Below are positions 23,376-29,604 of a DNA stretch of 33,772 nucleotides, one piece after another. Source of the stretch: Hyphomonadaceae bacterium (lineage in GTDB: Bacteria > Pseudomonadota > Alphaproteobacteria > Caulobacterales > Aquidulcibacteraceae); contig JAKFWO010000047.1 of assembly GCA_021731815.1 (NCBI GenBank), forward strand, positions 1 through 33,772. Reading direction: 5' to 3'. The position numbers were made by a program, and so were the translations under genes. Position 1 is the stretch's first letter. Every line of letters begins with the position of its first letter. The notes below the pieces were generated by a model that had not been told where the DNA came from, did not search any database, and worked only from the letters and a program-made list of their open reading frames with translations.

Positions 23376-24500
23376 CTACGCCTTTGTCCCGAGTGCTTCG
23401 CGCAAAGCCGCAAGTTCGAGCCGGATGGCGGCCAGTTCATCGGCCATAAGCTGCTCGCGCCGGGCCGCATTGGTCTCAGCCGCCTTCTGGGCCGATGCAA
23501 GCGATTCCATATCGGCTTCAACCGCGCCGAGTTCGGCCCCGACTTCGCGCAGATCGCCACCGACCTCCCCGATCTTTTCGGTCACGATCCTGGTTTGCGA
23601 TTGCTGCACCGCCTCCACGATCACCCCGATGAACAGGTTCATCACGGCAAAAGCCGCCAGAAAGGTGAAAATGATGAAGAATATCCACGCACTCGGCGCG
23701 CCCTTTTCGTTCATCACGGTGAAAACCACATCGCCCCAATTGTCGAACAAGGTGAGCTGGAAAAGCGTCAGGGCGCTGGAGCCGAGCGTTCCAAAGCGTT
23801 CAGGCCACAAATCGCCGTACAAGGTGGTCGCCATCACCGACCCGATGAAGAAAACCACGAACAGGACCGCGAGTGTCGCCCCGATGCCAGGGATCGCCCC
23901 GCTCAGGGATTCAATGATGCGCCGCATTTGCGGCACGACGTGAAGAAGCCGCAACACCCGCAGCACGCGCAGGACCCGCAAGGCGGACAAAGCGGGAATG
24001 GCCTGCGACCACGAGGCAGCCACGACGATCAGGTCGAAAAGATTCCATCCATTGCGCAGAAATCCACGCATCCCGAACGCGATCAGCTTGAGCCCGAGCT
24101 CCGCTGTAAAGATCAGCAGAAACAGGAGGTCGAGCATTCTCGCTGAGCCGTGAAAGGGATGGGAATCGCTCAATTGCGCGTCAAAGCCGATAATGGCGGC
24201 ATTGACGATCACGCAAAAAATGATGAAGCCCTCGAACCAGTCATTATGGACGATGCGGCGGGCGAATGCCGGCATATCCGCCATGCGCGATGCCAGTCGG
24301 GCAAGGGCTTTTTCGACACCCCATTTTCTTGTGAAAGATTCCGCTCCGGCCAGAACATCACGCACCGCTTGCGGGGCCGCTCGGGCGGAACCCTGCGCGG
24401 AACCGGGGCCTGTGCCTGAATCCTGCCCGGCAGTCAGATTCTGGTCAGGAGCCGCTGCGCCATGACCATGTGTCGATTGTCCCCGCAAATCGGCCGCCAT
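23376..24500 (-). CDS. Six-TM voltage-gated-type cation channel
   Basis: The 374-residue protein has the single-domain bacterial sodium-channel layout. A disordered N-terminus (1-80) is followed by S1 (88-106), S2 (122-141), S3 (152-168), S4 with arginines at 175, 178, 181 and 184, S5 (208-228), pore loop (243-257), S6 (271-297) and a C-terminal coiled coil (about 305-372) that would hold a tetramer together. The filter reads L251-F-D253-N-W255-G-D257. Aligned on the conserved Phe and Trp, this replaces the usual T-L-E-S-W-S-M, so aspartates stand at the high-field and outer positions, which suggests divalent permeation. AGGGGG lies 5 nt before the ATG at 24500; the frame is open to 24641 but would overlap the TerB gene. 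Confidence 0.85.
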   Translation of the reverse strand: MAADLRGQSTHGHGAAAPDQNLTAGQDSGTGPGSAQGSARAAPQAVRDVLAGAESFTRKWGVEKALARLASRMADMPAFARRIVHNDWFEGFIIFCVIVNAAIIGFDAQLSDSHPFHGSARMLDLLFLLIFTAELGLKLIAFGMRGFLRNGWNLFDLIVVAASWSQAIPALSALRVLRVLRVLRLLHVVPQMRRIIESLSGAIPGIGATLAVLFVVFFIGSVMATTLYGDLWPERFGTLGSSALTLFQLTLFDNWGDVVFTVMNEKGAPSAWIFFIIFTFLAAFAVMNLFIGVIVEAVQQSQTRIVTEKIGEVGGDLREVGAELGAVEADMESLASAQKAAETNAARREQLMADELAAIRLELAALREALGTKA

Positions 24501-24582
24501 CTGCGCCCCCTGCCCGGAGCCGCCAGCGGCGCGCGAATCTGCTGATCCGCAACGCCTGCCGGCTGCGCCCGCAGCCCTGATT

Positions 24583-25095
24583 TCAGAACAGCGCCTTGAG
24601 CAACAAGACTTCCATGACCCGCCGTGAATGGTCCTGATCAAGGTCGAGCATGGTCGCGAGGCGATCGAGGAATTCGCCCTCTGACTTCACGAGTTCCCCA
24701 TCGGCGAGCATGATATCCACGCAATGGGCAAAGAAGGGCAGGCACATATCGGAAGGCAGGGTCTCGCAGGCTTCCTTTAGGGCATTGGGATTTTGCGCAA
24801 GGCGCTGATTGACCACATCGTTGGCCTTGGCGAGATCGGCGGGCGACAGCGAACGCAACGCACGCGACCGCAAGGCCAGTTTCTGGATCAGATCGCCTTC
24901 TTCCTGCGTGAAGGAGCCGTCCGACATTGCCGACGCGACCATGACGGCGAGGATCGCCTCCGGAATGGTCCATCCGGTATTGCGGTGGCGGAACTTGTCC
25001 GACAGGCGCTCGAGATCAAAAGGCGATTTCGCCTCGACCGCGAAATTCTGGAAAACATTGACAGTTCGTTCGGTACCCGGGGGGCGCTGCATCAT
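24583..25095 (-). CDS. TerB-family (tellurite resistance-like) protein
   Basis: The 170-residue all-helical protein resembles the TerB family. It has two acidic helical repeats, each with an Asp/Glu-rich turn: M-S-D-G-S-F-T-Q-E-E-G-D and L-A-D-G-E-L-V-K-S-E-G-E. In known TerB such acidic turns bind metal ions. No signal peptide is present, so it should be cytoplasmic. GGAG is 7-8 nt upstream of the ATG at 25095. It sits 82 bp upstream of the channel gene and 39 bp downstream of the one-TM coiled-coil gene. No other canonical ter gene (terC, terD, terZ) is nearby, so tellurite resistance should not be assumed. A calcium- or metal-linked regulatory role next to the channel is a guess from context. 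Confidence 0.75.
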   Translation of the reverse strand: MMQRPPGTERTVNVFQNFAVEAKSPFDLERLSDKFRHRNTGWTIPEAILAVMVASAMSDGSFTQEEGDLIQKLALRSRALRSLSPADLAKANDVVNQRLAQNPNALKEACETLPSDMCLPFFAHCVDIMLADGELVKSEGEFLDRLATMLDLDQDHSRRVMEVLLLKALF

Positions 25096-25134
25096 GGCAA
25101 AACTCCAGTTTCGTTAAAATTTACGCGGCGATTA

Positions 25135-25761
25135 TCAGCGGGGGAACGGGCTGACGCCGGTCTCCCGCGGACGGGTGACGGGGCGCACCCAGGATTTGAC
25201 CGCCTTCTCGCCGGTTTCCAGGGCCTTGATTTCGGCCTCAAGCTGGGGAATCGCCGCACGGCTGACCTGCTCCCATTTTGGTTGCCCCAGATAGGCAGCA
25301 AGCACCCGGCGAACGCGCGGATCATTTTCGGCCCCCTTCTTGCTGTCGGTGAGCAAAGCCGCAATCCGGTCGCGTACCTCCTGAGCCTCGCGCCGACGCG
25401 TTTCCACCTCAAAATAGGCCTGGGAGACTTCGTCGCGTTCGCGCTGAACCGCAAGCATTTCCTCGGCATGGCGCTTTTGTTCAGTGGCGAGCTGGGCTTC
25501 CAGGGCCTTGGCCGCCCCGCCTGATTTTTCCAATTGCGCTTTCAGGCCCGCAGGTTCGGCCCGCAAACGGCTGTTGTCGAACAACAGAAAAATACTCACC
25601 AGTGCGGCCGCGACCAGAAGCCCGCCCAGAAAAATAGTGGTGGCGAGCAGACGCGCCGACTGGGATTTCGCGTTCTCGATCTCCGCCTGGGACGGAACAT
25701 CTGAGAAAACCTTCGGCATGATCCGTGGTGAATTCCGGTCTTCGCTGGTGACGAGTGTCAT
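25135..25761 (-). CDS. One-TM coiled-coil membrane protein
   Basis: I do not recognise this 208-residue protein. Residues 1-37 are polar and cytoplasmic-looking, and 38-61 form one membrane helix (T-T-I-F-L-G-G-L-L-V...). Residues 64-145 are rich in Glu, Ala, Arg and Gln with heptad spacing, as in a coiled coil, and the C-terminus is basic and Pro-containing. The coiled coil would project into the periplasm if the N-terminus is inside. The ATG at 25761 has GGGGA about 8 nt upstream; a GTG at 25803 would add 14 residues. It lies between the secreted TPR-like gene (62 bp) and the TerB gene (39 bp), which suggests one transcript. Confidence 0.65.
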   Translation of the reverse strand: MTLVTSEDRNSPRIMPKVFSDVPSQAEIENAKSQSARLLATTIFLGGLLVAAALVSIFLLFDNSRLRAEPAGLKAQLEKSGGAAKALEAQLATEQKRHAEEMLAVQRERDEVSQAYFEVETRRREAQEVRDRIAALLTDSKKGAENDPRVRRVLAAYLGQPKWEQVSRAAIPQLEAEIKALETGEKAVKSWVRPVTRPRETGVSPFPR

Positions 25762-25823
25762 GATGAGATTCCCCTGCCAATTTTCGATGAGTAGACGTAG
25801 CACGTTGATTCAGATGTCGTTCT

Positions 25824-27431
25824 TCAGGGTTGGGTGTCGACCGAGCATAATGGCCCCCCCGGAAGCGCACTCGGCGTTCCCCCGACCGGATCCACGGGCA
25901 CGCAGCTCGAAAGCCCCAGCCGTTCGAACAGGGATCCCTGACTCTGGTCGCTTGGTCGTTCGCCCATGCGACAATAGCCCAGCACCCATTGGGCCATCTG
26001 GCTTCCCTGCTTCAATTGTTGGCGGCGGGCGGCCCTTGCGAGCTTTTCCGACTCGGAAATGCCGGCCGGCGTTTCTTCCAGCATGTCGCGCCCACCTTCG
26101 AAGGATTGTTGGCCGATGCGTACATATTCCCGCCAGCGGACTTCCTCGGCGCTGGGATCGCGTCCGGCAACAAATTTGAAATTGGCGAAGCATTGCGCCC
26201 GCTTCAGTGAATAAAGCCCGCGCAGCAATTCGGCCTGACCCGATGTCGAGGATTTCTTCTCGCACCAATCGGCATTGACGCCATCGCGCGCATCCCGTCC
26301 GCCCAAAGCGATATGCGCAAGACATAATGGCACGTAGAAATCCGCCTGCTCCCCCCCCGCTTTCAGTGATGCGAGGGCAAGCTCGCGAACCCGCGTCCAT
26401 TCGGCGAAGTTCCGCGCTGTACGTGCCGCGAATTCCGCCAGCCGAAAGCGCACAAAAGCGAGATTATAGGTCCGGCCCGGTCCGGGACTGGCGAGATCCC
26501 CGTCATCGATGATTCCCGGTGCATTGGCCACCGCAAAGGCGCGCAAGGCGGCCTCGTCATTGCCCAGCAAATGATAGAGTTCACCAACAGCCGCATTGGC
26601 GAAGACTGATTTCGGCGCAGAGGCCTGAATCCGCGGCAAAAGCGGCAGGATTTCGCTGGCCGGGGATTTCCTCGCCTCCAGCCGGAACAGCGCCAGCCTG
26701 ACCAGCGCACGTGCGACGGCAGGATCCTGCTGGGGCAGGGCATTGATCTTTTCCTCGGCCTTGTTGTCCAGCCCGGCGGTCATATAGGCGTCGAACAAGG
26801 CGGAGTTACGCGCGTCACTCGGCGCACGGGCAATTGCAGCTTCAAGTGCCGACACCGCTTCGATCCGCAAGGTCTGGGCCTGTTCCGATTGCCCGCCAAT
26901 ATACGCACTCCATTGGGTGGCGGCAGCGGCGCGCTTGTCCTGGGCCTCGACTTCGAGCCCGACGGCCCCCGCACGAGCAGCCAGAACCCCCGCCCGTTTG
27001 AACGCGCACAAGGCCGCCGAATAATTCTTCTCGCGGGCCAGCGATCTGGCGAGCTTCAGGCTGGCCTCGCCGACACACATATAAGCAGGCACGCTCAGGG
27101 CCACCGCCGGTGTCTTCTTGCCACCGCGCTGGCCACGACCGGTGGCGGCAACCGGTGGCGCGAGGTCGGGTGCGGTCTTCCGGCATTCGGTGCGGACGAA
27201 CTCAAGAATATCATCATTGGCGGAGGGAATGACGGAGCCGCGATCGATCTTGAGCCGATCGCTGACGGTCAAATCGATCCGGGGCCCCGTGACATCTTCG
27301 CCAGGCAGAATACATTGATCGGTTGGAAGATTTTGCTGGGCGAGTGCCATGGTTCCGATGCTGGCCTCCAGCCCCCCCAAGGCTGCCAGGCCCATGACGA
27401 TGGCAATCGTCCGTCTTGGTGATCCACCCAT
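25824..27431 (-). CDS. Exported TPR-like helical-repeat protein
   Basis: The 535-residue protein begins with a cleavable signal peptide (about 1-31, P-R-R-T-I-A-I-V-M-G-L, ending A-L-A before Q-Q-N). Most of the rest consists of Ala-rich helix pairs resembling TPR or Sel1-type repeats, for example S-A-A-L-C-A-F-K-R-A-G and G-E-L-Y-H-L-L-G-N-D-E-A-A-L-R-A-F. Several cysteines could form disulfides in the periplasm. GGGAG lies 8 nt before the ATG at 27431. It is the first gene of the minus-strand cluster ending with the channel, and it diverges from the two-TM gene over 210 bp. I do not recognise a named family; a periplasmic scaffold or sensor is plausible. Confidence 0.65.
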   Translation of the reverse strand: MGGSPRRTIAIVMGLAALGGLEASIGTMALAQQNLPTDQCILPGEDVTGPRIDLTVSDRLKIDRGSVIPSANDDILEFVRTECRKTAPDLAPPVAATGRGQRGGKKTPAVALSVPAYMCVGEASLKLARSLAREKNYSAALCAFKRAGVLAARAGAVGLEVEAQDKRAAAATQWSAYIGGQSEQAQTLRIEAVSALEAAIARAPSDARNSALFDAYMTAGLDNKAEEKINALPQQDPAVARALVRLALFRLEARKSPASEILPLLPRIQASAPKSVFANAAVGELYHLLGNDEAALRAFAVANAPGIIDDGDLASPGPGRTYNLAFVRFRLAEFAARTARNFAEWTRVRELALASLKAGGEQADFYVPLCLAHIALGGRDARDGVNADWCEKKSSTSGQAELLRGLYSLKRAQCFANFKFVAGRDPSAEEVRWREYVRIGQQSFEGGRDMLEETPAGISESEKLARAARRQQLKQGSQMAQWVLGYCRMGERPSDQSQGSLFERLGLSSCVPVDPVGGTPSALPGGPLCSVDTQP

Positions 27432-27641
27432 TTCCTACTCCCCGAGATACGCGTCGTTAAAACTTCCTAATACAGAAATCCCGGGGACGGAAGCGATTTC
27501 GGAATGGGCCCCCAAACGGCCAGCCGCTCCTGAATTTGCGATTCGTGCCTTGCGCTCGTGAAACATTGTTTCCCGTGACTTTGCCAGTGTCATTTGATAG
27601 GACCCGGTGTCCCGAACCCGAGGGCCAATCCCCATCCGGAA

Positions 27642-28085
27642 ATGTCAGGCACATCCATGATCGCTGGACAGATCGAGCCGGAGGACCTCCAGACCCTGGA
27701 GGCCATCCTCGAAAGCGAATTGCGCCATCACCGCAGCAAATGCCGGCTGTGGCTTGCACTGTTCGTCGTGGCCTTTGTGAGCCTCGTGCTCGCGCTGATC
27801 TGTGTCATCGTCCAGCTGGCATTCGACATCCGTGCATCGGCTTTTACGAACTTTGGTGGCCAGTTCCAGTTGTTTCAGGTTCTGGCTCCTTTGGCCGGCG
27901 CGACCCTGTTATGCTATGGCGCATGGGGCGGCGCACAGAACTGCCTTTCCGGGATCGAGCGCAGCCTGTTTGCCGCGCGCAATGGCCGCTTCAACCTGTT
28001 CCGGGGATTTCTGGGCCAGATCCAGTGTGCGGGCAAGAACAAGACAAAGGCATGGCTCGAAATCGTCAAGGGCGTGATGGGCTGA
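27642..28085 (+). CDS. Small two-TM membrane protein
   Basis: The 147-residue protein has a polar N-terminus with D-L-Q-T-L-E-A-I-L-E-S-E-L, two membrane helices (about 35-58 and 75-97) and a basic C-terminus (F-A-A-R-N-G-R-F-N-L-F-R-G-F). Both ends are therefore likely cytoplasmic. I do not recognise the family. Start choice is uncertain among TTG 27594, ATG 27642 and ATG 27657; 27642 has CCGGA close upstream. It is the first of two plus-strand genes that diverge from the exported TPR-like gene and run to just before polA. Confidence 0.55.
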   Translation: MSGTSMIAGQIEPEDLQTLEAILESELRHHRSKCRLWLALFVVAFVSLVLALICVIVQLAFDIRASAFTNFGGQFQLFQVLAPLAGATLLCYGAWGGAQNCLSGIERSLFAARNGRFNLFRGFLGQIQCAGKNKTKAWLEIVKGVMG

Positions 28086-28170
28086 GATAACGGCAGAAGA
28101 AGTGTGCCGGTATATTGTTCTGGAATATCGGGCGATCCGCCGGCAGCGGAAAAAGGGGCGGGTAGCACGA

Positions 28171-29604
28171 ATGGCTGAGAAACGGCACGGAAGCGAAGGG
28201 CAAGGCCCTGCCGATGACGAGGCGCTGGCCGCGCTGATCATCCGCGAGCAAAAGGGCTTTCGGGGCACGATGCTGGCGGGGGTCGCCGCGTTGCTCGTCA
28301 TGACTCTCGTCACGGCGGCGCTCGGTGCCTATTTGTATACCGCCAATGACAAGCTCTCGCGTACCATCGGCGAATTGCAGGGCCAGGCCTTCACGCTCCG
28401 CCGCGCCATGGACGGCCAGCGCAACCAGATCACGATCCAGGAGCGCACTTTGCGCGGCTATTATGCCGATATCAGGGGCGATGGCGGCAACATTCCGGCT
28501 GTCGCAGGGCCGACCCAGCCCGCGGCAATTGCCACAGCCCGCATGGCAGCAAAACGCTTTCTCGAAATCGGTCGTATTCCGGATCTGGGCGAGCAGAGGC
28601 TGATCACCCGCTTGGCCGGGACAGAAATTCCGGAGACATCTCCGGCCGAGCGCGCCTTGTTTGCCGGCACCGCGGCGCTGACAGAATTTCTCTGGCGCAA
28701 TGAGCCGATTGCCCGCGATGCGACGGAATTGCCGCCATTGCTGCGCCAGGCCGAAGCCGCTTTTAATTCAACTCTCGCCGATCCGGCGATCCTGCCACTG
28801 GCGGGTGCGGGGCTGGCGCGAATCCGCTTCACGGATGCGAGTTCCGCACGCAATAATTTCGACGAACAGGCCTGCGCTTCTGTCTATGACGCCATCGATT
28901 CAGCCGGCACTCCGGCCCCCTTGCCGCTCTATTGGCGCGCCCAATGCGAGCGCAAGACCGGCCGCACCGGCGCGGCCCTGGCCGATTATGCCCGGGCGCT
29001 CGCTCAAAGCGTTGTCCTTGTCTCCGGAGATCGCCCCGAGGAGGCCGAACTGACGCTCGCCATGAATGCGTTTCATGGCCTTGGAACGACTTTGGTGGCT
29101 GGCGCGCTGCTGTCCGAAGAGACCCCCGAATTGCGTGAGGCACTGGCGGTCGCCACCGCGCAATGCGGAGCACCCGCACCATCCCATTCGCCCCGGATGG
29201 GGCTTGCGGTTGCCTGTCTCGGACGGGCGATGGAATTGCGCCAAAGGCTTGGCCAGACCGCCAACCAGATCAGCGGATCGGCCGAAAATGTCGGCTTTGC
29301 CCTGTTGCGCGACAAGGATTACGACGCGGCCTACGCCCATTCCTTGGCCATCGAGCGCACGGGTCTTTTCGCGTGGAACGAGATTTTGCGGGCGCTCTCG
29401 GCATCGGGGGCGGGCGATGCTGCGGCCCCGGCAGGCGCACGCGCGGCGATATTGCGTCAGGCGCTGCTGAATATGTCCCTGTTTTCGGTCGATGAATTCA
29501 ATCTGTGCGAACTTCGGGCCTTGCTCGGTGACCGCGATTATGCCGAAGCCCGCAAACTGATTGCCGGGACACATCCCGGCGAGCGGGTTGAATGTACGTC
29601 CTGA
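28171..29604 (+). CDS. One-TM protein with periplasmic TPR-like domain
   Basis: The 477-residue protein has a short acidic cytoplasmic N-terminus, one membrane helix (about 33-56), a short coiled-coil-like stretch (T-I-G-E-L-Q-G-Q-A-F-T-L-R-R) and a long Ala-rich helical region like TPR repeats. It includes L-Y-W-R-A-Q-C-E-R-K-T-G-R-T-G-A-A-L-A-D-Y-A-R-A-L, a good TPR unit. The last part has paired cysteines. The ATG at 28171 is preferred over the open extension to 28102; its ribosome-binding site is weak. It follows the two-TM gene by 85 bp. Its architecture mirrors the divergent exported TPR-like protein, so the two may work together, but no family assignment is made. Confidence 0.62.
   Translation: MAEKRHGSEGQGPADDEALAALIIREQKGFRGTMLAGVAALLVMTLVTAALGAYLYTANDKLSRTIGELQGQAFTLRRAMDGQRNQITIQERTLRGYYADIRGDGGNIPAVAGPTQPAAIATARMAAKRFLEIGRIPDLGEQRLITRLAGTEIPETSPAERALFAGTAALTEFLWRNEPIARDATELPPLLRQAEAAFNSTLADPAILPLAGAGLARIRFTDASSARNNFDEQACASVYDAIDSAGTPAPLPLYWRAQCERKTGRTGAALADYARALAQSVVLVSGDRPEEAELTLAMNAFHGLGTTLVAGALLSEETPELREALAVATAQCGAPAPSHSPRMGLAVACLGRAMELRQRLGQTANQISGSAENVGFALLRDKDYDAAYAHSLAIERTGLFAWNEILRALSASGAGDAAAPAGARAAILRQALLNMSLFSVDEFNLCELRALLGDRDYAEARKLIAGTHPGERVECTS

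Follow-up and report, generated by a model that had tools for sequence, protein, structure and literature searches.

TerB domains are poorly understood, and the described systems closest to the locus reported here are the Ter systems, the TerB-DnaJ protein DjlA, bacterial voltage-gated channels and prokaryotic caspase-FGE proteins. The locus lies in a stretch of DNA of 33,772 nucleotides from a Hyphomonadaceae bacterium (assembly GCA_021731815.1, contig JAKFWO010000047.1; hereafter the window), which makes up contig 31 in its entirety, in a genome of 2.53 Mb, and it comprises six open reading frames (ORFs), four on the minus strand and two on the plus strand (Table 1). Five of them, the cassette TPRm-CC-TERB and the pair TM2-TPRp, very probably constitute one functional unit, as judged from gene neighborhoods in related genomes, and the sixth, a voltage-gated-type channel, is most likely an unrelated or recently acquired neighbor of this module. 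The parts of the module belong to known domain families, and the set itself is undescribed within the searches made. Indeed, neither this gene set nor the channel-DjlA pair discussed below was described among the literature matches listed (titles and abstracts, mostly open-access), and a text search of PMC11237479 did not find TerB.

Like the Ter systems, the module has a TerB domain; the structural model of TERB tentatively resembles the structures 2h5n and 2ou3 best. Its fixed partners differ, namely a membrane protein with a coiled coil and proteins of TPR-like character. TerD was found in none of the 36 genomes carrying the cassette (2 of 14 control genomes were positive) and TerC was not searched for, so that, by the TerD test, this is not a Ter system. 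DjlA shares the TerB domain with TERB and its gene often follows a channel gene in this order of bacteria, whereas a Pfam search of TERB gave no DnaJ match (TerB and DUF533 being the only matches listed) and the genome of the window has a separate djlA. Regarding known anti-phage defense, the PADLOC matches were weak (best E values of 0.00086 for PDC-S48 and 0.0018 for LmuB) and this assignment was rejected. Caspase-FGE fusions are already known, according to PMC3501461; such a gene precedes a distant relative of the TM2-TPRp pair in 11 of 20 loci, but none was found in the module of the window. As for channels, CavMr, an ancestor-like BacNav, has the filter TLEGWVD, in which glycine at position 4 is one determinant of calcium selectivity (PMC7041947).

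Recurrence of the cassette and the pair

This TerB is present at E <1e-50 in 47 of the 398 genomes of the order (a grouping of the genome sample; in NCBI, Terricaulis belongs to Caulobacterales and Hyphomonadaceae to Hyphomonadales), of which 45 were fetched, G286 and G291 being left out. TPRm, CC and TERB were found in fixed order and on one strand in 36 of these 45 genomes, with script-called gaps of 7 to 110 bp between TPRm and CC, whereas CC and TERB overlap by up to 112 bp or lie up to 169 bp apart; some loci are short or are cut off by the end of a contig (e.g., L121, L143 and L022). G272 has CC-TERB only, and a diverged cassette was found in L033, outside the 45 genomes. The flanks of the cassette form several unrelated groups, and because the three genes are kept together while their surroundings change, the cassette is most simply a functional unit, although loci of one flank group share one inherited site, so that 36 overstates the number of independent cases. 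The closest TerB sequences among named records come from two Hyphomonadaceae and one Terricaulis metagenome-assembled genome, and strong matches are confined to two families of one order. In class-wide samples (385 genomes), searches for TerB (E 1e-15) and TPRp (1e-10) returned only the genome of the window and G037, both from within the order. An earlier reading by a model that saw only the letters of the window (the sequence-only reading) had named repeated co-occurrence in distant genera as support for a system; the 36 cassette genomes represent seven genera, all of this single order, and none was found beyond it in the class sample.

TPRp, for its part, has 10 strong loci (E <=1.8e-49) in the 398 genomes and any match in 34 genomes, and TM2 adjoins it in all 10 strong loci. 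Pair and cassette are contiguous in 7 of the 10 strong-pair genomes, in four different gene orders: divergent in the window, convergent in L020, tandem in L137 and L138 and a second tandem arrangement in L141, L142 and L143. A first labeling of 54 sequences used profiles of four module proteins, built from alignments of 2 to 10 sequences. Because some of the loci that the CC, TPRm, TPRp and TM2 profiles later labeled had also served as seeds for them, the late E values are not independent; 29 channel loci other than that of the window, examined for control, gave no CC or TPRm match.

The six ORFs were recovered with the positions, order, strands and spacing of the sequence-only reading. With the chosen starts, the minus-strand gaps are 62 bp (TPRm-CC), 39 bp (CC-TERB) and 82 bp (TERB-CHAN), the coordinates of CHAN assuming an ATG start, with later starts possible. 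The five non-channel ORFs can be considered real genes because they are conserved. Scans gave 4 promoter-like sites, where shuffled sequence averaged 1.3, and 8 terminator-like sites against 7.2, and co-transcription is not settled by them.

Table 1. The six ORFs of the locus, with their positions in the window.
Feature	Coordinates	Strand	Description
TPRm	25824..27431	-	Exported TPR-like protein, 535 aa; first cassette gene; lipobox in many homologues
CC	25135..25761	-	One-transmembrane coiled-coil protein whose short N-terminal tail bears the motif VFSDVPS; second cassette gene
TERB	24583..25095	-	Stand-alone TerB-domain protein, 170 aa, with two acidic turns that are invariant; third cassette gene
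CHAN	23376..24500	-	Voltage-gated-type channel, Ion_trans, filter LFDNWGD; judged outside the module
TM2	27642..28085	+	Two-transmembrane protein; first gene of the pair
TPRp	28171..29604	+	One-transmembrane coiled-coil/TPR-like protein, six conserved cysteines; second gene of the pair

Protein families and putative trans-envelope layout

TERB matches the Pfam family TerB (PF05099) at E 1.6e-9, with 38.5 bits for a cut-off of 24.4, and the domain was matched in 30 of 30 homologues. The acidic turns noted in the sequence-only reading proved to be strictly kept, residues D59, E66, D132 and E139 being invariant in 30 homologues. The structural model of TERB, built from 3 sequences (predicted local distance difference test, pLDDT, 74.7), has its best likeness to 2h5n (Z 9.2) and 2ou3 (Z 7.4), the next match standing at 4.0; Foldseek gave weak E values for the model (0.046 and 0.061). 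Of these structures, 2ou3 is a COG3793 protein and was matched by the TERB profile at E 0.016, and the single TERB sequence gave no match against PDB sequences.

The TPR-like character proposed for the two exported proteins stays below threshold in the window, where TPRm reaches 15.4 bits for TPR_19 (Pfam cut-off 25) and TPRp 22.2 bits for TPR_12 (cut-off 30.1). It remains likely for TPRm because homologues in L106, L138 and L033 exceed the TPR cut-off. A profile comparison of TPRm with TPRp indicated no homology. PDB matches to the TPRp model were helical repeats, none at E <=0.001, and no family name was drawn from them. Regarding topology, CC has one transmembrane segment in 36 of 36 proteins, with lysine and arginine richer before it in 29 and after it in 3, and TPRp has one in 10 of 10, with the same bias before it in 9. 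TPRm has a hydrophobic N-terminus in 32 of 35 proteins and a lipobox-like site in 23 of 35, the window protein itself being devoid of a lipobox. TPRm conserves eight cysteine columns, each kept in 29 or more of 35 sequences, and TPRp six (10 of 10), which matches the expectation for oxidized exported domains. The tail of CC carries a recurring short motif (VFSDVPS, VFQSVPT, VFQPVPT or TLFPxP), possibly a docking site.

These features make a trans-envelope layout of the five-gene module likely. In such a layout, cytosolic TerB would bind the short tails of CC and/or of TPRp and TM2, possibly through its acidic turns and depending on divalent metal, the coiled coils would extend into the periplasm, and disulfide-stabilized TPR-like domains, often lipoproteins, would hold a periplasmic or outer-membrane client. 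Whether seen as a scaffold for an envelope process or as a sensor reporting on it, the mechanism is put forward tentatively. Taken as a whole, an undescribed five-gene inner-membrane/periplasm complex in Hyphomonadaceae- and Terricaulis-like alphaproteobacteria is a reading that we consider evenly poised. The gene set is conserved in relatives of Hyphomonas and Caulobacter, and within the searches made no function is described for it. The proposed layout lends itself to testing, with TerB in the cytosol, a coiled coil anchored across the membrane, and exported, disulfide-rich TPR-like proteins on the outer side. Moreover, a TerB protein with fixed membrane partners offers a direct route to asking what TerB binds.

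Competing explanations and the channel

Several observations weigh against a single five-gene complex. The seven genomes in which pair and cassette touch represent no more than four lineages; 29 of the 36 cassette loci do not have the pair as a neighbor, three genomes have the pair with no cassette next to it, and TerB without the cassette is found at nine loci, in eight genomes and, as a ninth stand-alone locus, in the cassette-bearing G246. The predicted structure of TPRp is poor (pLDDT 62.2), and the same crude hydropathy scan used above also called a transmembrane segment in 20 of 44 TerB proteins and a single one in 4 of 9 TM2 proteins, so that the topology is not settled. The frequent distance between pair and cassette is what two separate units with different jobs, neighbors only sometimes, would produce, and the distant pairs have their own caspase-FGE operon. 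These diverged pairs (TM2'-TPRp') occupy separate loci (TM2' in 19 of 20, L076-L095), and the caspase-FGE gene of the 11 loci mentioned above lies directly upstream on the same strand; operon-like caspase-FGE/TM2'/TPRp' runs are seen in L146:8028-11544, L080, L083-L085, L088-L090, L092-L095 and L151. The L146 caspase-FGE protein has a hydrophobic N-terminus, Peptidase_C14 and FGE-sulfatase domains and GHG and DACR motifs, and the arrangement suggests that TM2'-TPRp' pairs may hold exported effectors. Against two units, however, stand the contiguity kept through four gene orders in most strong-pair genomes and the extra TerB copies that flank the pair in L137 and L138; we consider this explanation rather unlikely. 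The caspase-FGE genes beside distant pairs, the TerB domain, the patchy distribution within the order and an integrase-like gene (recognized by eye) adjoining the module in L020 would also fit a stress or defense island of the Ter or caspase-FGE type, with the module genes as accessory membrane parts. Yet the absence of TerD from the 36 cassette genomes, the weakness of the PADLOC matches and the presence of a single, weak caspase match in the cassette loci (L120) make an island of this kind highly improbable.

The channel raises a different alternative. CHAN matches Pfam Ion_trans at E 6.4e-46 (156.9 bits for a cut-off of 25) as well as Nav and Cav channels in the PDB, and its designation as a voltage-gated-type channel in the sequence-only reading was thereby confirmed. 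That reading had assembled all six genes into one unit, in which the channel admits ions, the acidic turns of TerB read them and the signal is relayed to periplasmic TPR scaffolds. The close same-strand spacing in the window, the invariance of the acidic turns, the L149 locus and the position of channel genes just upstream of djlA in 19 of 40 genomes can be cited in its favor. In L149 a channel gene lies ~1.4 kb from a diverged TM2'-TPRp' pair, which counters a clean separation of channel and module. However, a channel is present in only one of 49 module loci, the window itself, whereas 41 of 61 genomes have a channel homologue (a count that includes the window's genome and one weak match). 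The conserved, undescribed system thus holds for the five genes, the divergent membrane partners among them, and not for six; likewise, independent scatter across related genomes applies to the channel and not to the other five. A role of the channel in supplying this TerB with an ion signal was thus not supported. Moreover, djlA persists elsewhere in the genome of the window, on contig 12, where the 12 kb examined contained no channel, MoxR lies 158 bp beyond the channel, which is equally well placed for transcription with it, and no channel-djlA pair was found in 21 class-sample loci, two of which end right after the channel. A six-gene unit is accordingly very doubtful, and we retain the five-gene module with the channel outside it.

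The recurrent channel-djlA pair is a separate lead on the role of prokaryotic voltage-gated channels. In 19 of the 40 genomes with a strong channel match, djlA lies downstream of the channel on the same strand within 3 kb, and 16 of these 19 cases fall within the 1.5 kb flanks of 29 loci examined; the loci include L036-L041, L043, L045, L046, L049-L051, L054-L057 and L149, in the last of which the djlA product has TerB and DnaJ domains. The filters of these djlA-linked channels are unlike TLESW. Channel and djlA are also apart in G002. Because of this linkage and of the L149 locus, one version of the ion-signal idea is kept alive: in this order, TerB domains would read, from the cytosol, voltage-gated channels that probably let divalent ions pass, usually as DjlA, and the channel of the window would have been re-paired with the stand-alone TerB of the five-gene scaffold. 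We see this as a long shot, which, if true, would link ion entry to envelope organization. The filter of the window channel, LFDNWGD, differs from TLESW of canonical BacNav and from that of CavMr, position 4 being Asn and not the Gly of CavMr-like calcium channels. Filters of relatives include QFDGWGD, TMDGWRFE, TLDGWSGE and TLESWSM, and many relatives have Gly (e.g., FDGWGD).

Flanking genes and minor observations

In the window, a MoxR/DUF58/DUF4159 cluster lies to the left of the six genes and polA to the right. In two further genomes (L123 and L124), polA is found within ~6 kb of the TM2-TPRp pair, compared with adjoining it in the window. Among cassette flanks, one group of nine loci is bordered by MlaA/MlaC and, at the opposite end, by an amidase, five loci have a VWA protein and a hydrolase, four have acetate kinase and phosphotransacetylase and three a pentapeptide-repeat protein, the remaining contexts being singletons. 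The MlaA and MlaC genes adjoin TPRm in L024, L128-L133, L135 and L136, which represent one context group. The pentapeptide-repeat protein has C-terminal membrane segments and is encoded directly downstream of TerB (L029:6445-8466; similar in L118 and L120). Finally, in Terricaulis, the integrase-like gene adjoining the module occupies L020:10749-12014, and the C-terminal part of TM2 (L020:10020-10469) is unaligned in the picked frame, a frame change being possible.

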